NCBI GenBank assembly: GCA_001781435.1
Contig: MFLV01000010.1
Coordinates: 1-37,498 of the forward strand
From: Candidatus Kaiserbacteria bacterium RIFCSPLOWO2_01_FULL_51_21
Lineage (GTDB): Bacteria > Patescibacteriota > Minisyncoccia > Phycocordibacterales > 2-01-FULL-51-21
Direction of reading: 5' to 3'
Length of the DNA stretch: 37,498 nt
Shown: piece after piece, positions 1,263-28,880 of the stretch
How the letters are laid out: each line of letters begins with the position of its first letter
Numbering within the stretch: position 1 is the stretch's first letter
Translations under genes and position numbers: made by a program
The notes under the pieces: model-generated
The model's input: only the letters and a program-made list of their open reading frames with translations
Database searches by the model: none
Told to the model about the DNA's origin: nothing

Positions 1263-2538
1263 TTTTTTCTTCAAGAATTCCTGAAGTTTCATTCAAAGAC
1301 CTTAGATATTTTTTGGCAACGCGAAAAACGTCCGCGGGCTTTAGCTTTAGAATCGCCTGCTCAACAGTATAGCCAAGCTGCCAATCCCCTGCCGCAATGG
1401 ACTCTGACACCATACGAATCTCTGAAAACACACCATCGCGCTCCGCGGCAAATTGTGACAGCAGCCGCTCCCGCGCGCGCGCCATTTCGTCGGAAGCCGG
1501 TGCTTTCTTTGTAAAGGTTGCCACTTCTCGTTGCATTGCGGCAATAACGCCCTTGGGTTTAATGCCATGCGCGACATGGGCAGTGAGGGTTAAAACGCCC
1601 GGGTCATGGAGCGCCGGTATCGAGACATTCACATCCGCCGCGAGTCCCCTATCGACAAGTGCCCGGGAGAGACGGCTCGCAAAACCTCCGCCGAGAATTG
1701 CTCCGAGAAGTAGGAGCGCGGGATACTCTTCATTGATACCCTCTGGAATTTTATAGGCAAGCATGACAATAGCCACGCCTAAAGACTTCGTAAGTGTAAC
1801 TCTGTGAGGTCCTTCTTGCGGCGGCTCAACGGTGTTCATGGTAGGAATCGGCTCTGGTGACGTTGAAATTTTTCCAAAATGCTTCAAGACAAGTTGCTTC
1901 ACTTTTGCAAAAGGAACGTCACCAAAGATGGAGAGCGTAGCATTATTCGGCCAATAGAACCTGTTATAAAATTCATGCAGTTTTTCCGCAGTTGCTCGTT
2001 CAATGTCTTCTTTTGTGCCGATGGTCGGTATTTGGTATGGGTGCACCGCAAAGGCAGCGGACATTACTTCTTCGTCAAGAAGTTCAAAGGGGTTGTTGCG
2101 CGAGCGTTCAAATTCGTTGCGCACGACCGGCATCTCGCTTTGTAAGTCGGTTTCGGAAAACAGCGAGTTGCGCATCCTATCGGCTTCAACCGCGAGCGCC
2201 TCCGAGAGACGCTCGCGCGGCAGAAGCTCGAAATAATTGGTGCGATCGAGCCAGGTCGTCGCATTCATGTACGCCCCGAACCATTCAAGATAATTCGTAA
2301 TAGCGTTGCCCTTCGCGGCATTGAAATTCTTCGTGTCCTTAAAAAGCAGGTGCTCCAATAAATGCGTCGAGCCGGTATGCCCTGCTGCTTCATTGCGCGA
2401 GCCGACATGATAGGTAACACACACCGCAACAACCGGGGCTTCCCTATCGGACTTATAAAGAAGCCGCAAGCCGTTTGAGAGGCGATATTCGGTAACACCA
2501 AAAGCCGTGCGAATTTTTGCCAGTTTCTCTTTCTTCAC
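1255..2538 (-). CDS. M16 family zinc peptidase (catalytic subunit)
   Basis: 427 aa; HLLEH (HxxEH) zinc motif in HTGSTHLLEHLLFKDT; typical M16 sequence. Start appears to be GTG. Confidence 0.92.
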   Translation of the reverse strand: MKKEKLAKIRTAFGVTEYRLSNGLRLLYKSDREAPVVAVCVTYHVGSRNEAAGHTGSTHLLEHLLFKDTKNFNAAKGNAITNYLEWFGAYMNATTWLDRTNYFELLPRERLSEALAVEADRMRNSLFSETDLQSEMPVVRNEFERSRNNPFELLDEEVMSAAFAVHPYQIPTIGTKEDIERATAEKLHEFYNRFYWPNNATLSIFGDVPFAKVKQLVLKHFGKISTSPEPIPTMNTVEPPQEGPHRVTLTKSLGVAIVMLAYKIPEGINEEYPALLLLGAILGGGFASRLSRALVDRGLAADVNVSIPALHDPGVLTLTAHVAHGIKPKGVIAAMQREVATFTKKAPASDEMARARERLLSQFAAERDGVFSEIRMVSESIAAGDWQLGYTVEQAILKLKPADVFRVAKKYLRSLNETSGILEEKND

Positions 2539-2564
2539 AGGAGAGGAGAATACCGCATTCCCGC

Positions 2565-3164
2565 TTAGGAGACAAACGACTTTAAAATTTGGAAATCTTT
2601 CTTGAGCGTTTCTTTGAGGGATTGGGTATAAATTGCCGCTGCGGGATGGTACATCGGTACGATGGTAATGTCGCCATAGCCAGCTTTCGCTTGGTACGTT
2701 TTGCCATGAGCGGCACTGATGGGCTCAAGCTCAAAGAGGAGGTCAAATTTCTGCATTATGTAATTCATCGAGTAACGCCCTAAGGTCACAATGACTTTCG
2801 GCTGAATAATCTCGATCTGCCGGTCCAAAAAAGGCCCGTAAATTTCAATTTCGCTCGGCAGGGGGTCGCGATTTTCCGGGGGGCGGTCTTTGACGATATT
2901 CGTAATATAGACGTCTTGGCGCGGAATATCGATTGAAGCGAGCAGGTCGTCCAAAATTTTTCCCGCAGTACCGCAAAAAGGACGCCCCGTCGCCGCTTCA
3001 TTGCGCCCCGGCGCCTCGCCGACAAACATGAAGTGCGCATCATGGCTTCCCTCTCCGATCACCGGATGATTTTTGTGTTCAACGCGGAATGCGTAGATTG
3101 GCGACTCTTTGAGCGCCACCACCTCATCCCGTATCTGCTTCATTTTTTCATGCTTATCTTTCAT
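2565..3164 (-). CDS. Uracil-DNA glycosylase, family 4-like, without Fe-S cysteines
   Basis: FVGEAPGRNEAATGRPFCGTAGKILDDLL and NIVKDRPPENRDPLPSEI motifs; start chosen at MKDKHEKM (ORF extends to 3197). Confidence 0.88.
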   Translation of the reverse strand: MKDKHEKMKQIRDEVVALKESPIYAFRVEHKNHPVIGEGSHDAHFMFVGEAPGRNEAATGRPFCGTAGKILDDLLASIDIPRQDVYITNIVKDRPPENRDPLPSEIEIYGPFLDRQIEIIQPKVIVTLGRYSMNYIMQKFDLLFELEPISAAHGKTYQAKAGYGDITIVPMYHPAAAIYTQSLKETLKKDFQILKSFVS

Positions 3165-3199
3165 TACTGCAGTATTACGATATATCGTAATAATCACTA

Positions 3200-3700
3200 T
3201 TAAAGCTTTTTAACCCCGTGAATAGTATATTCGGAAAAAGATTCTCCTTTCCCGTTGAAATGAAATTCAGCGGTTAGAAAATCGCCCGCAAGGACCTTAG
3301 GAAGCCAGTATTGGTCATCTGACCATGTTTTATCGTATGGAATCGCCTCAAGGTCATGCCACTCGGGCGCCATTTCTTCAGTTTCTTTCGGCTCTCCTCG
3401 CCAGTGGTAGCACAGATACACAAAACAGTGGACATTCCAATCCGGATGCTCGTTGAAGTAAAAAAGAATTTCCGCCGCCTTCACTAGATCTTTTTCTGCG
3501 ACCTCTACTTCCGCTTCCTCCATAACTTCCCGAACTGCCGAAGCGGTAATGGTTTCCCCTTTGTTCACTTTTCCGCCATAGCCATTGAGTTTCCCTGCGC
3601 CAAAGCCGCGTTTTTTCATGCCGAGAAGAATCTCATTCTCTTCCTGGTCGATCAAAAATATAAGCGTGTTTTGGCGCAGACGCTCTCGTTTCTCGGTCAT
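3200..3700 (-). CDS. NUDIX hydrolase (MutT/MTH1-like)
   Basis: NUDIX-box-like GGKVNKGETITASAVREVMEEAEVEV; 166 aa. Confidence 0.9.
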   Translation of the reverse strand: MTEKRERLRQNTLIFLIDQEENEILLGMKKRGFGAGKLNGYGGKVNKGETITASAVREVMEEAEVEVAEKDLVKAAEILFYFNEHPDWNVHCFVYLCYHWRGEPKETEEMAPEWHDLEAIPYDKTWSDDQYWLPKVLAGDFLTAEFHFNGKGESFSEYTIHGVKKL

Positions 3701-3710
3701 GATGCAAGTA

Positions 3711-3775
3711 TACCCCGTGAGATAGAAGTACTTAAAGCAGCATGTTAGGCATGGTATTTAATATCTCACGGGGTA
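3711..3775. repeat. 65-bp miniature inverted-repeat element (family B)
   Basis: 14-bp perfect terminal inverted repeats TACCCCGTGAGATA...TATCTCACGGGGTA; one end also occurs at 7605-7625. Confidence 0.75.
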
Positions 3776-3793
3776 AACGAATCTAAAAATGGT

Positions 3794-3828
3794 AACGCCA
3801 GCGATGTCTTTCAACATCGCTGGCGTTT
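3794..3828 (-). terminator. Stem-loop, probable terminator of the 3834-4268 gene
   Basis: AACGCCAGCGATGT-CTTTCA-ACATCGCTGGCGTT perfect stem just after the stop codon. Confidence 0.6.
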
Positions 3829-3833
3829 AGTTC

Positions 3834-4268
3834 TCAGGCCGTCGCGCGCAACCGCGACTGCCACTCGACGTATCGGACTGGCTCATACCCGGCGGCCCGT
3901 ACCTCCGTAACCAGCGCGATTCCAAAATGCCGGTGGAGATGCTTTTGTGAGCCCCACAGATACTCTTGATCCATGGTAAACATTTCGCCGGGAATCTCGC
4001 ACGCCTCAACAAAGTCGATCGCCTCGAGGGTTGCCCGGTGAAGGAGAACTGCGACGGCGCGCCGGCTGAGCTCGAAGCGGATGGTGTGGTCGTACGAGGC
4101 AACGAGGTGCAACCCGATGTCCTTTTCGCCGCCGCTGTGAGGAACCCGCAGGCAGCTCCCCCGCGAGAGAACGAGTATGCCCTGCTGACCGGCCTCGCTC
4201 CACGTACGAAGCATTTTGCCGCGGTTTTCCGCGACAAACCCTGCGATATCAAATGTTGTCCTTGTCAT
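3834..4268 (-). CDS. Hypothetical protein, 144 aa
   Basis: Complete ORF with strong SD (GGAGGGTGAG) before ATG and a stem-loop after the stop. Confidence 0.65.
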   Translation of the reverse strand: MTRTTFDIAGFVAENRGKMLRTWSEAGQQGILVLSRGSCLRVPHSGGEKDIGLHLVASYDHTIRFELSRRAVAVLLHRATLEAIDFVEACEIPGEMFTMDQEYLWGSQKHLHRHFGIALVTEVRAAGYEPVRYVEWQSRLRATA

Positions 4269-4339
4269 CTCACCCTCCAGTAACTCCTGGCGCCCTGCCT
4301 AGGATCTAAACGACAGTATATCACTCTATAATAAAAAAG

Positions 4340-4963
4340 TCAAGTTTTTCGTTCAATGAGGGGAACGAAGGCAAAACCCTCATGGCGCTTTGTTTCTAGG
4401 GTTCCGTTTCTATTTTTTGTAATCTTCACGATAGCATCGCGAACGGGAACCACCATGACTCCTTCCAAGGCGAGTTGTTCAATAAGCGTCTCGGGAAGTT
4501 TTTCGGCCGCGGCCGAAACGAGAATCCGGTCGAACGGAGCTTCCGAAGCGCGTCCAAGCTCCTCTCCTGCCCGCTCTATGCGGGCTTGCAGAAAATGATA
4601 CTTCCCCAGATTTTTTTGTCCAAACGCAACAAGTTCTGGCACCCGTTCAAGCCCGAGGACGCTCCCCTTCTCGCCAACGACCTCTGCAAGAAGCGCACTC
4701 GTCCAGCCCGAGCCGCATCCGACGTCGAGAATTTTCTGCCCGCGCTTAGGCGCAAGAAGCTCGAGCATGAATGCGACCGTAGTTGGCTGGGAAATGGTCT
4801 GTCCTTGTCCTATCGGAAGCGGATAATCCTCGTACGCTTCGCCTCGGTATTCAGGCAAAATAAAATCCGCCCGGTCAATTTTTTCAAATGCCTCCCGGAT
4901 ACGCGGAGTTTTCAAAACCCGGGTATTCGATTGCAGATGTTCTAGCAGTTGTACCCGATCCAT
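4340..4963 (-). CDS. pcm: Protein-L-isoaspartate O-methyltransferase
   Basis: SAM motif ILDVGCGSGWTSALLAEVVG; GQGQTISQPTTVAFMLELL typical of Pcm. Confidence 0.93.
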   Translation of the reverse strand: MDRVQLLEHLQSNTRVLKTPRIREAFEKIDRADFILPEYRGEAYEDYPLPIGQGQTISQPTTVAFMLELLAPKRGQKILDVGCGSGWTSALLAEVVGEKGSVLGLERVPELVAFGQKNLGKYHFLQARIERAGEELGRASEAPFDRILVSAAAEKLPETLIEQLALEGVMVVPVRDAIVKITKNRNGTLETKRHEGFAFVPLIERKT

Positions 4964-5024
4964 ATCTTAATCTTATGCTCGCAATGAAATTGAAATCATT
5001 TGATATATCAAACGATTCGATATA

Positions 5025-5282
5025 TCAGGATAACGCACTTTCGCGCTGAAGCAGTTTCTTCTTTTGTTTCATACCACCGCGGTTATAGCCGCCAAGACCC
5101 CCGTCGCTACGGATAACGCGGTGGCAGGGAATCTTTGGGTCGTAGTTCGTCTTCAAAATGGCGCCAACCGCTCGCGCCGCGTTGGGATTGTCGGCGCGGG
5201 CGGCAACCTCGCGGTAGCTTAAGGTCTTCCCTTTTGGGATTTTTTTAACGACCGTAAAAACGCGTTCTCGAAACGACTTCAT
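5025..5282 (-). CDS. Methylated-DNA-protein cysteine methyltransferase domain protein (MGMT/Ogt C-terminal domain)
   Basis: VFTVVKKIPKGKTLSYREVAARADNPNAARAVGAIL...IPCHRVIRSDGGLGGY with PCHRV; start at MKSFRERV. Confidence 0.88.
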   Translation of the reverse strand: MKSFRERVFTVVKKIPKGKTLSYREVAARADNPNAARAVGAILKTNYDPKIPCHRVIRSDGGLGGYNRGGMKQKKKLLQRESALS

Positions 5283-5284
5283 AT

Positions 5285-6112
5285 TCAGAAGAGCTTGCCC
5301 GAGCGAACCGCCTCGGCGGCTCGCTCGGGCTTTTTTCCCACGTGGTGTTCCTTTTCCTTTTCCAAAAGGATTTTTCCGGCGGCTTCGCGGTAGCCGCAGT
5401 ATTCGCACTCCGGCGATTTCGCGGGTGGTGTCTCGCTTTCAAGCGCCGCACGGATTTTTTCAAGCGTCGGCACGATCCATTCGTCCGAGCCTTTGTAGGA
5501 AATAAGCATTACATCGAACTCAAGCCGCGCATCGAACGCCTTCCGGTCAGTTCTGCCGTTCACGTACACAAAATAGCCGGTGTCCGAGACCTTGAACCCG
5601 TTTTGTCGGAAGAGCCATTGGTACACTTCGAGCTGCCGCTTGTATCCCTGCTGCCAGCGCCCCTCGAGATTTATCTCCCCTTTTTTGCTCGTCGCTTTAT
5701 AGTCCACGATGATGAGCTCCCCAGAGGGCGCGACCCAGACGTCATCAACGCCGCCGCGCACCAGCAAGTTGGTCGGGGTGTGGTGATACTGGATGCCGCG
5801 GCGAAGCGCATCGCGCCACTGCTCCATGCGCTCATCCCTAAGAGGAATGGCGTCAACACCATACGTCTTCATCAGAGGGTGCGCCGTGCCGTTTGCGCGA
5901 TGGATGTCGAATTCCTTTTTGAGAAGCTCATCGACGGCGTTATTGAGCGTAAAGGCGGGAAATTGGGGACGCGATACGCCAAGCCTCTCTGAAAGATACA
6001 GGCAGCGCGGACAATCGATAAAAAGATCTATTTTTGAGCGGCTGATCTTAAAGGGATCCCTGCTTTTTGGGTCAAATAACTGCTTCCTCCAACCGCTTTT
6101 TCCAAGGGCCAT
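5285..6112 (-). CDS. PD-(D/E)XK nuclease family protein (RecB/Cas4-like fold with Cys cluster)
   Basis: KISRSKIDLFIDCPRCLYLSERLGV, VDDVWVAPSGELIIVDYKATSKKG, YKRQLEVYQWLF, CEYCGYREAAG. Start chosen at MALGKSG. Confidence 0.85.
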   Translation of the reverse strand: MALGKSGWRKQLFDPKSRDPFKISRSKIDLFIDCPRCLYLSERLGVSRPQFPAFTLNNAVDELLKKEFDIHRANGTAHPLMKTYGVDAIPLRDERMEQWRDALRRGIQYHHTPTNLLVRGGVDDVWVAPSGELIIVDYKATSKKGEINLEGRWQQGYKRQLEVYQWLFRQNGFKVSDTGYFVYVNGRTDRKAFDARLEFDVMLISYKGSDEWIVPTLEKIRAALESETPPAKSPECEYCGYREAAGKILLEKEKEHHVGKKPERAAEAVRSGKLF

Positions 6113-6130
6113 GCAAAACATCATAGCATG

Positions 6131-6168
6131 AACCCGCCCCTGATTTCCCAGGAAATCAGGGGCGGGTT
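6131..6168 (-). terminator. Strong stem-loop (18-bp perfect stem)
   Basis: AACCCGCCCCTGATTTCC-CA-GGAAATCAGGGGCGGGTT, downstream of the 6203-6721 stop on the minus strand. Confidence 0.65.
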
Positions 6169-6202
6169 TCCTACTCGGTTGTCAGTTGTCGGCTGTTTGT
6201 TC

Positions 6203-6721
6203 CTATTGCGCCTTGAACATCGCCATGACAAACTTTCCTTCTTCGCTAAGAAGCGGCTTATCGTCATGAAGATCAAAGTCCCCGCCGTTATCAGCATGAA
6301 GCATCACATAGTAGACATTCCCGGCAGTCGTACCGCGGAGGAGTTCAACCTCGCCGGTTACGGTAGTTCCCGATGGGAAACGCTGGGCGCCAAGCACTAA
6401 GCTCGGAGCTCCATTTTGCTCCTCATGCACCACAACCCAGCCGCCTTGCGGCAGTGCCACGTTCGTGACAACAACCTTTTGACCTGCTGGCTGGTCCGCC
6501 GCTTCGACACTCTCGCCGCCCGCTGCCGCTACACCATCCGCCGCGGTACCCGATATGTCGGCAACGCCTTCGCCTTCCGGGGATGCCTGTTCCTCCTGCG
6601 AAGGACTCGCGACTAGTGCGCTCCAGCCGCGCTCAAGCCCGAGCCATGCCCCGCCGCTTCCCACGATGAGCCCTGCTACAAAACTCAGAATCATTTTCTG
6701 CCTACTTGACATACTGTTCAT
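6203..6721 (-). CDS. Membrane-anchored protein with a DUF7282-like domain
   Basis: N-terminal TM anchor, Ser/Gly/Glu-rich linker, C-terminal VVVHEEQNGAPSLVLGAQRFPSGTTVTGEVELLRGTTAGNVYYVMLHADNGG. Family assignment from memory. Confidence 0.65.
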   Translation of the reverse strand: MNSMSSRQKMILSFVAGLIVGSGGAWLGLERGWSALVASPSQEEQASPEGEGVADISGTAADGVAAAGGESVEAADQPAGQKVVVTNVALPQGGWVVVHEEQNGAPSLVLGAQRFPSGTTVTGEVELLRGTTAGNVYYVMLHADNGGDFDLHDDKPLLSEEGKFVMAMFKAQ

Positions 6722-25868: not shown

Positions 25869-26040
25869 ATTGAAAGTATACTCCACTCAGAAACCAATGG
25901 AAACAACGGTCTTTGTGCGATGGACCTATGGGAGCCGGTCACAAGTTCGCGCGTGCTCGCGCGCCTCGCGACAGCGCCTCGAAGCCGAACTCCTGCGACC
26001 TGCGACTCCCCACACCCCAAGCTTTGCTTGAGAACCCTAG

Positions 26041-26111
26041 TGGACCTGCGGGGAGTCGCACCCCGGACTCGTCCATGCCATGGACGCGTGTTACTGCTAT
26101 ACCACAGGCCC
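26041..26111 (-). tRNA. tRNA-Ala (anticodon GGC)
   Basis: GGGCCTG...CAGGTCCA acceptor with G3:U70; anticodon stem-loop CGTCC ATGGCAT GGACG; T-arm present. Confidence 0.93.
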
Positions 26112-28400: not shown

Positions 28401-28663
28401 TCGGGGCGCCAAAAATCGAACTCGGTCTCACAATTTGTTGCTCACAAATTCCACGGAAGTGCTGAGCACTTCCGATTTATTCCATTTTCGGGGTGGGGAG
28501 AATCGAACTCCCGTCTCACAAATTTCTTATCGAAATTTCCACGGATGTGCGGGGCACATCCGGTTCACTTCATATTCGGGGCGCCGAGAATCGAACTCGG
28601 ATCTTACAATTCGCTGCTCGCGAATTCCACGGAAGCACCCCATGCTTCCGATTCACTCCGCCT
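28401..28663 (-). ncRNA. Tandem array of three tRNA-like units (87/88/88 nt) without acceptor 5' strand, 3' of tRNA-Pro
   Basis: Units 28576-28663, 28488-28575 and 28401-28487 each read: spacer, hairpin 1, CGTGG, hairpin 2, GTRAGA, T-arm with TTCGATT loop, CRCCCCGA. Minus-strand poly-T at 28382-28389 follows. Confidence 0.85.
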
Positions 28664-28734
28664 TCGGGGTGGGGAGAATCGAACTCCCGTCTCACGAACC
28701 CGAATCGTGTATACTGCCGCTGTACTACACCCCG
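28664..28734 (-). tRNA. tRNA-Pro (anticodon CGG)
   Basis: CGGGGTG...CACCCCGA acceptor (C1:G72, typical of tRNA-Pro); anticodon stem-loop CACGA TTCGGGT TCGTG; T-arm GGGAG TTCGATT CTCCC. Confidence 0.93.
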
Positions 28735-28771
28735 AAGCCAGAGTGAATCCCAAATCGTGCCTGCCCCGTTG

Positions 28772-28791
28772 CCTGCCTGCCAGCAGGCAGG
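28772..28791. repeat. REP-like palindrome CCTGCCTGC-CA-GCAGGCAGG
   Basis: Perfect 9-bp arms between the divergent tRNA-Pro and tRNA-Val genes; TATAAT at 28795-28800 precedes tRNA-Val. Confidence 0.75.
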
Positions 28792-28806
28792 TACTATAAT
28801 CGTGCC

Positions 28807-28880
28807 GCGCGCGTAGCTCAGTCGGTTAGAGCGTACGCTTCACACGCGTAAGGTCTCTGGTTCGATCCCAGACGCGCGCA
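28807..28880 (+). tRNA. tRNA-Val (anticodon CAC)
   Basis: GCGCGCG...CGCGCGCA acceptor; D-arm GCTCAGTCGGTTAGAGC; anticodon stem-loop TACGC TTCACAC GCGTA; T-arm TCTGG TTCGATC CCAGA. Confidence 0.96.

Follow-up and report, generated by a model that had tools for sequence, protein, structure and literature searches.

tRNA genes are classic landing sites of bacterial mobile DNA, and the known elements that use them are large and carry an integrase. At tyrT of E. coli the rtT repeats, tandem units of 178 bp, lie 3' of the tRNA, each closing with the tRNA 3' end. tRNA fragments that arise from integration have been described for tRNA-targeted elements (PMC9897764). The locus considered here lies in a window of 37,498 nucleotides, the whole stretch of DNA that was analysed, from Candidatus Kaiserbacteria bacterium RIFCSPLOWO2_01_FULL_51_21. 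With moderate confidence, the array that trails its tRNA-Pro gene can be regarded as the record of a small mobile hairpin-pair element, denoted E, that targets tRNA loops and was amplified in tandem in the window, a stem around the tRNA, P1, being kept so that the nested tRNA folds.

On the minus strand a complete tRNA-Pro(CGG) (28735-28663), called by ARAGORN and scored at 61 bits by the Rfam tRNA model, is followed head-to-tail by three units of 87-88 nt, at 28662-28576, 28575-28488 and 28487-28401. Reading of the sequence confirms these units as they were set out in the first-pass annotation, each consisting of hairpin 1 (9 bp), GTGG, hairpin 2 (7 bp), a T-arm with TTCGATT, and CRCCCCGA. 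The component features of the units are all on the minus strand. In unit 1, folding and pair counts place hairpin 1 at 28630-28650 and hairpin 2, 3' of the GTGG tag, at 28608-28626; pair counts place the corresponding hairpins at 28542-28562 and 28520-28538 in unit 2 and at 28454-28474 and 28432-28450 in unit 3. Over the three units 47 of the 48 hairpin pairs are Watson-Crick and the remaining one is G.T. The 3' part of every unit is derived from tRNA-Pro, as had been proposed: unit 1 ends in a displaced tRNA-Pro 3' half (28576-28607), the 32 nt of that in unit 2 (28488-28519) are identical to the inner tRNA, with GTGAGACGGGAGTTCGATTCTCCCCACCCCGA common to both letter for letter, and that in unit 3 (28401-28431) is decaying, with G.U pairs in the T-stem and a 1-nt deletion. 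Folded singly and compared with shuffled sequences, only unit 2 is clearly more stable (z -3.6), with values of -1.95 for unit 1 and -1.28 for unit 3.

The units are not ordinary tRNAs. ARAGORN calls none of the three as a functional tRNA of type I or type II, its sole call here being the tRNA-Pro, and an Rfam scan of the window at the gathering cut-off gives tRNAs and no other RNA family; type II tRNAs or pseudo-tRNAs were ruled out on these grounds. Elsewhere in the window ARAGORN also calls a tRNA-Ala(GGC) at 26040-26111, which falls below the gathering score of the Rfam tRNA model. The plus strand of 28435-28816 holds overlapping antisense ORFs with motifs such as GRIELPS and ENRTPVS that come from the tRNA 3' copies, and these will probably be annotated wrongly as proteins.

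Unit 1 makes up the right-hand side of a nested arrangement. This runs from an outer tRNA-Pro 5' half, which breaks off at the anticodon loop, through a 13-nt arm, the complete tRNA-Pro and a complementary arm, the two arms forming P1, to hairpin 1, GTGG, hairpin 2 and the outer 3' half. What had been read as the unit-1 spacer, GGCGGAGTGAATC (28650-28662, minus strand), base-pairs with GATTCACTCTGGC (28737-28749, minus strand), immediately 5' of the tRNA, through 11 Watson-Crick pairs and one G.U. This pairing was missed at first, as was a remnant of another tRNA-Pro 5' half, CACGATTTGGG (28749-28759, minus strand), which lies 5' of GATTCACTCTGGC, comprises an anticodon stem and loop and matches positions 27-37 of the inner tRNA; relatives have a full outer 5' half at this place. 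The region 28760-28576 folds into P1 with the tRNA, hairpin 1, hairpin 2 and the T-arm, with a z of -4.15. A palindrome, CCTGCCTGCTGGCAGGCAGG (28772-28791), is present in the outer 5' half between a D-arm remnant, TATAGTAC, and CACGATTTGGG, and such palindromes apparently lie within tRNA-derived halves in several genomes, further cases being L156 (5226-5252) and L068.

The spacers of units 1-3, GAGTGAATC, AAGTGAACC and GAATAAATC, look homologous by eye and no upstream partner arm was seen by eye for those of units 2 and 3, so that the best reading is of one right-hand module (arm, E and 3' half) amplified in tandem to give the three units. Units 2 and 3 are also without any 5' half. That units 2 and 3 arose by nested insertion was rejected on the same two observations, the lack of partner arms and the resemblance of their spacers to that of unit 1. 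Following the amplification the hairpin stems would appear to have diverged through changes on both sides of their pairs, and the T-arm of unit 3 is decaying.

A BLAST search of relatives with the whole array gave mostly matches to tRNA T-arms, so a covariance model was made without the T-arm. The first model (hairpin 1-GTGG-hairpin 2), built from the three units of the window with loci L006 and L008, found further, independent copies (best E-value 4.5e-13), of which the strong ones adjoin tRNA genes. At an E-value <= 0.01 it matched 33 of the 297 genomes of the same order, the weakest of these matches probably being chance. A refined model, built on 17 sequences, matched 28 of 384 genomes sampled across the class, a count that includes some weak matches to coding sequence (L080, L081, L085, L087 and L089) which are chance; in 380 genomes sampled across the phylum (E-value <= 1e-4) its sole match was the window's own genome. 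E is present in dozens of Paceibacteria (Parcubacteria) genomes and in none outside the class among the genomes sampled, and named records that have the hairpin-2 motif in a tRNA context belong to Parcubacteria, Campbellbacteria and Zambryskibacteria. Two motif matches outside Patescibacteria (L152 and L153), without hairpin 1 and without tRNA context, were taken as chance.

From these copies E is seen to be ~45 nt in length and to consist of hairpin 1, a GYGG or CCGG tag and hairpin 2, with a third hairpin in front in some copies. In the alignment 95.6% of the cells of its hairpins are paired and 13 of the 16 pairs have two-sided changes, compared with <=57% paired for controls in which the structure was slid along the sequence; the covariation first suggested from the three units alone is thus far above chance once the relatives are included. 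A search of 12 E loci against Rfam in E-value mode gave no known family beyond tRNA and no intron family, and rtT RNA (RF00391) matched neither these loci in the same mode nor the window at the gathering cut-off. No description of the family was found in the literature, the coverage of searchable papers being partial, and it is apparently undescribed.

In the relatives the hairpin pair lies inside the loops of outer tRNAs, which argues against the earlier view of the units as free-standing, acceptor-less tRNA-like RNAs with hairpin 1 as the D-arm and hairpin 2 as the anticodon arm. It is found within the anticodon loop of an outer tRNA-Pro that has an acceptor and D-arm of its own 5' of the inner tRNA (L038, L037, L035 and L045) and within the T-loop of 3' copies of Ser, Leu, Gln, Glu, Asp, Lys, Tyr, Val and other tRNAs. 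No evidence was found in support of the decoy or aminoacylation-mimic roles that the first-pass annotation had listed; another of its options, a structure-driven mobile repeat, accords with the reading preferred here.

The anticodon-loop class is confined to tRNA-Pro, with anticodons CGG, TGG and GGG, and its parts follow one another as set out for unit 1, with GYGG as the tag. The outer 5' half ends at position 36/37 (..TTTGGG) and, at most loci, is separated from the inner tRNA-Pro by 12-14 nt, and the outer 3' half starts at about position 40-44. The most complete locus of this class is L038 (fold z -6.28), and two loci, L043 and L082, show double nesting.

Members of the T-loop class start with an intact tRNA. 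Behind it come a short spacer and a strand, S, that is complementary to the 3' end of this same tRNA; hairpin 1, CCGG and hairpin 2 then lead into a second copy of the tRNA 3' end, which begins at the T-loop. This arrangement occurs 3' of tRNAs of at least eleven types besides Pro (Ser, Leu, Gln, Glu, Gly, Tyr, Lys, Asp, Val, Met and Ile). S forms 89% Watson-Crick pairs with the 3' strand of its own locus and 50% with those of other loci. The second 3' copy sometimes carries 20-40 nt of 3' flank, with a 43-nt direct repeat at L109. A second type of module, in which hairpin 1 is followed by CCTTTTGAG..hairpin..CCAAAAGG-GTACTG-hairpin-CTGTAAG, was seen at L049 (962-1040), L052, L054, L056, L047 and L102; it is also found in tRNA T-loops, and at L049 (962-1040) it sits at the 3' end of an apparent rplK whose terminus is recoded. 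L146 (147-380) looks like the equivalent for the D-loop: upstream of the intact tRNA-Ser lies a copy of its 5' part in which hairpins interrupt the D-loop, and an inverted copy of the D-arm closes it.

Several comparisons bear on whether E moves. An identical 45-nt E is present in the Gln and Leu genes of one genome (G371) and in the Gln gene of another (G468), and similarity between copies of E follows the lineage of the genome (0.77-0.79 within a family, 0.68-0.70 otherwise) and not the type of tRNA. Within genus g98 tRNA-Ser(CGA) offers a filled site in G231 and an empty one in G114. In G114 the Cys and Leu tRNAs are 1 nt apart, and G231 has an insertion of ~240 nt between a changed Cys tRNA and an older-type Cys 3' fragment that still abuts Leu. 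At this locus (L141) the sequence of the intact Cys tRNA is not that of the displaced, older Cys 3' end; the 5' strands of the intact tRNA's acceptor and T-stem fit the new 3' half, as though they had been adjusted once the insertion was in place. E is not restricted to tRNAs: in G503 the hairpin loop of a non-tRNA repeat is occupied by a three-hairpin E, the other copy of the repeat having a plain loop (L113 vs L117). This repeat is roughly 0.3 kb in length with inverted ends CCTGATTTTAT..ATAAAATCAGG, E lying in an internal hairpin loop of the one copy. In genus g8 only 2 nt separate Pro from Ala in G007, and in G090 the spacer contains E and a 3' half. Here the inner tRNA-Pro of G090, and not the outer one, resembles the resident gene of its congener, so the difference may be due to a loss in G007, and empty Pro sites could be losses. 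As judged from the sequences, the identical E in two tRNA genes, the filled and empty sites of congeners and the double nesting together would indicate mobility.

In the proposed explanation E would enter hairpin loops, with a preference for the arms of tRNAs, taking the anticodon loop in tRNA-Pro and the T-loop in many others. Insertion would break one copy of the tRNA, with an intact tRNA left or brought alongside, so that the host survives and the displaced fragment remains. For tRNA-Pro the intact tRNA would lie within the element, clamped by the 13-bp stem P1, giving a tRNA nested in a tRNA, and in the window the right-hand module would then have been multiplied to three tandem copies. 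It would seem most likely that movement takes place as DNA, an enzyme acting in trans recognising E through its hairpins as a folded single strand and inserting it into exposed hairpin loops. P1 and the T-loop cap stem formed by S, the pair counts of which are given below, would presumably be kept as RNA, which would prevent tRNA fragments from misfolding together with the functional tRNA.

It is possible, although this is put forward tentatively, that E represents a new class of hairpin cassette that homes to tRNA loops. E would then be a folded recombination site, the unit of tRNA 3' end, cargo and E a cassette able to carry genes and the tRNA the entry site, with the Pro branch forming a stable shell RNA round a working tRNA behind its 13-bp clamp. 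Protein genes lie between two copies of E at L156, from Zambryskibacteria, where the order over 1953-6305 is tRNA-Ser, 4.2 kb of ORFs, E with an interrupted 3' copy, a gene, and E with an exact 3' copy. The 4.2 kb includes a GIY-YIG gene, the gene for OMP decarboxylase (pyrF) and other ORFs, and the gene between the copies of E has a match to Abi_alpha below the Pfam cutoff. By eye one ORF of the locus is ADP-ribosyltransferase-like and another is a likely pyrE; no tyrosine integrase was seen at L156. Genes between successive E sites are found in this one array, most units being gene-free.

A rather unlikely alternative is that P1, hairpin 1, GYGG and hairpin 2 are a functional, inherited RNA module, a cis-acting structure that aids the folding, processing or 3'-end protection of pre-tRNA-Pro and has spread by duplication. 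On one strand RNA tolerates G.T and not A.C, which at the level of DNA are equivalent. For P1, the arms of which were read by hand, the pairs across loci are 250 Watson-Crick, 21 G.U (G.T), no A.C and 4 other (p about 1e-6), and for S, with one duplicated locus counted once, there are 18 G.T to 3 A.C (p 0.0015). This strand-specific, RNA-like pattern favours the module, as do the persistence of P1 where the hairpins or outer halves have decayed (L011 and L024), the stability of the composite folds (z -4.2 and -6.3) and the conserved synteny. The Pro class is common to several families at conserved places, Val-Pro(CGG)-Ala and YraN-Pro(TGG)-protease, from which much of it would be inherited. 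Pairing of the tRNA flanks (>=10/13) is seen for 16 of 29 Pro tRNAs at E loci and for 10 of 189 other tRNAs, several of which are themselves at E loci or are Pro genes that bear P1. Moreover the hairpins are perfect at loci where the outer tRNA halves are gone (L034 and L046), upkeep that dead insertions would not need and which counts against mobility. In hairpins 1 and 2 there is, however, no excess of G.U, with 15 G.T to 9 A.C, or 10 to 9 when the decayed copy L060 is left out, neither being significant; thus P1 and S look to be constrained as RNA and the hairpins look like palindromes maintained at the level of DNA. Since the hairpins would be in the same transcript, their lack of bias also counts against transcription-coupled mutation as the source of the G.T pairs. 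Further against the module, E is dispensable, 264 of the 297 genomes of the order being without a match, and the same E occurs in the T-loops of many unrelated tRNAs as well as in non-tRNA hairpins.

That E belongs among the REP/REPIN-type miniature elements moved by IS200/IS605-like Y1 (RAYT) transposases, which prefer single-stranded hairpin loops, is improbable. It would account for the tagged hairpins, the single-stranded logic of the target and the compensated palindromes, and Y1 genes are present in 178 of the 297 genomes of the order. However, Y1 is about as frequent in strong carriers of E (about two thirds) as overall (about 60%), no E was found near any of 40 Y1 loci, the tag is GYGG/CCGG and not GTAG, and both the low copy number and the restriction to tRNAs are unlike these elements. 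A link to Y1 was rejected, there being neither association by count nor proximity. Tyrosine recombinases were rejected likewise, most carriers having one by PF00589 counts and non-carriers equally so, and phage carriage was set aside when viral contigs searched with one E hairpin-2 pattern gave no match. These searches gave no mobilising enzyme for E, which counts against its mobility.

Also improbable is a tRNA intron or split tRNA, in which an outer tRNA-Pro(UGG), broken at 37/38, would be spliced after excision of the nested tRNA, the two outer halves being held together by P1. The break is at the canonical intron position and the flanks pair over 13 bp. In the outer acceptor stems 82 of 91 pairs are Watson-Crick and 15 of the 21 pairs that differ from the inner stem are changed on both sides, which fits two tRNAs that may each once have been functional. 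By eye a complete outer anticodon stem is possible in L038; at most loci read (L037, L036 and L040, for example) it cannot form fully because positions 38-40 are lost. The outer halves are, in addition, decayed at many loci, units 2 and 3 lack a 5' half and there is no match to an Rfam intron family.

Ordinary decay, in which template-switch correction of quasi-palindromes would keep the hairpins of tandem partial tRNA duplications perfect without any transposition, would be in keeping with the homologous-looking spacers of the window, the strand-symmetric hairpin mismatches and the frequency of partial tRNA duplications near integration sites (PMC9897764), but it is weakened by the identical E in different tRNA genes, the conservation of the hairpin-2 loop motif CATAA across tRNA types, the empty sites and the exact loop positions, and is highly improbable.

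The reading of E as a mobile hairpin pair can be set beside the known systems. With the tRNA-integrative elements of tyrosine integrases E shares both target loops, the anticodon loop and the T-loop, and its loci likewise show an intact tRNA together with a displaced 3' fragment that starts in one of these loops. In contrast to those elements the unit that contains E is usually gene-free, about 100-200 nt and without an integrase inside, and at its displaced end it has the hairpin pair together with an inverted cap strand; a dedicated integrase was found neither in the element nor, by PF00589 counts, in the genome. E resembles the REP, BIME and REPIN palindromes and their RAYTs (PMC3116915, PMC3733652) in its short tagged hairpins with alternative complementary stem bases. 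Those have a GTAG or CGTC tag beside an imperfect palindrome and flank their own Y1/RAYT gene, whereas E has GTGG, GCGG or CCGG, is absent from the surroundings of the 40 Y1 loci, and lies almost always in tRNA loops with few copies per genome. As in integron cassettes with attC, there is a folded site by a recurring crossover position, with tandem arrays and, at L156, what may correspond to genes between sites; the site of E is, however, in a tRNA gene, most units are gene-free and no integron integrase was seen, tyrosine recombinases being counted through PF00589. The array of the window is like the rtT repeats in being a set of tandem repeats after a tRNA that end in the tRNA 3' end, although rtT has neither a family of hairpin pairs nor nesting and gave no Rfam match here. 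The Pro loci share the 37/38 break and complementary flanks with archaeal split and intron-containing tRNAs (PMC3218864, PMC4090602) and differ from them in having a whole tRNA at the break, a mostly broken outer anticodon stem and a bacterial host; for group I and II introns no Rfam match was obtained in the window or the 12 loci.

Among these systems E stands out as a gene-free hairpin pair of ~45 nt, sited exactly within tRNA loops across a class whose genomes are tiny and reduced, that would have produced nested tRNA genes. It provides a testable case of structure-targeted mobility and of the tolerance of broken copies of essential tRNAs, is possibly a cassette system in organisms whose mobile elements are little known, and accounts for the spurious antisense ORFs and tRNA fragments beside such tRNA genes. 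On this comparison E is filed as a variant of tRNA-targeted, REP-like mobile DNA.
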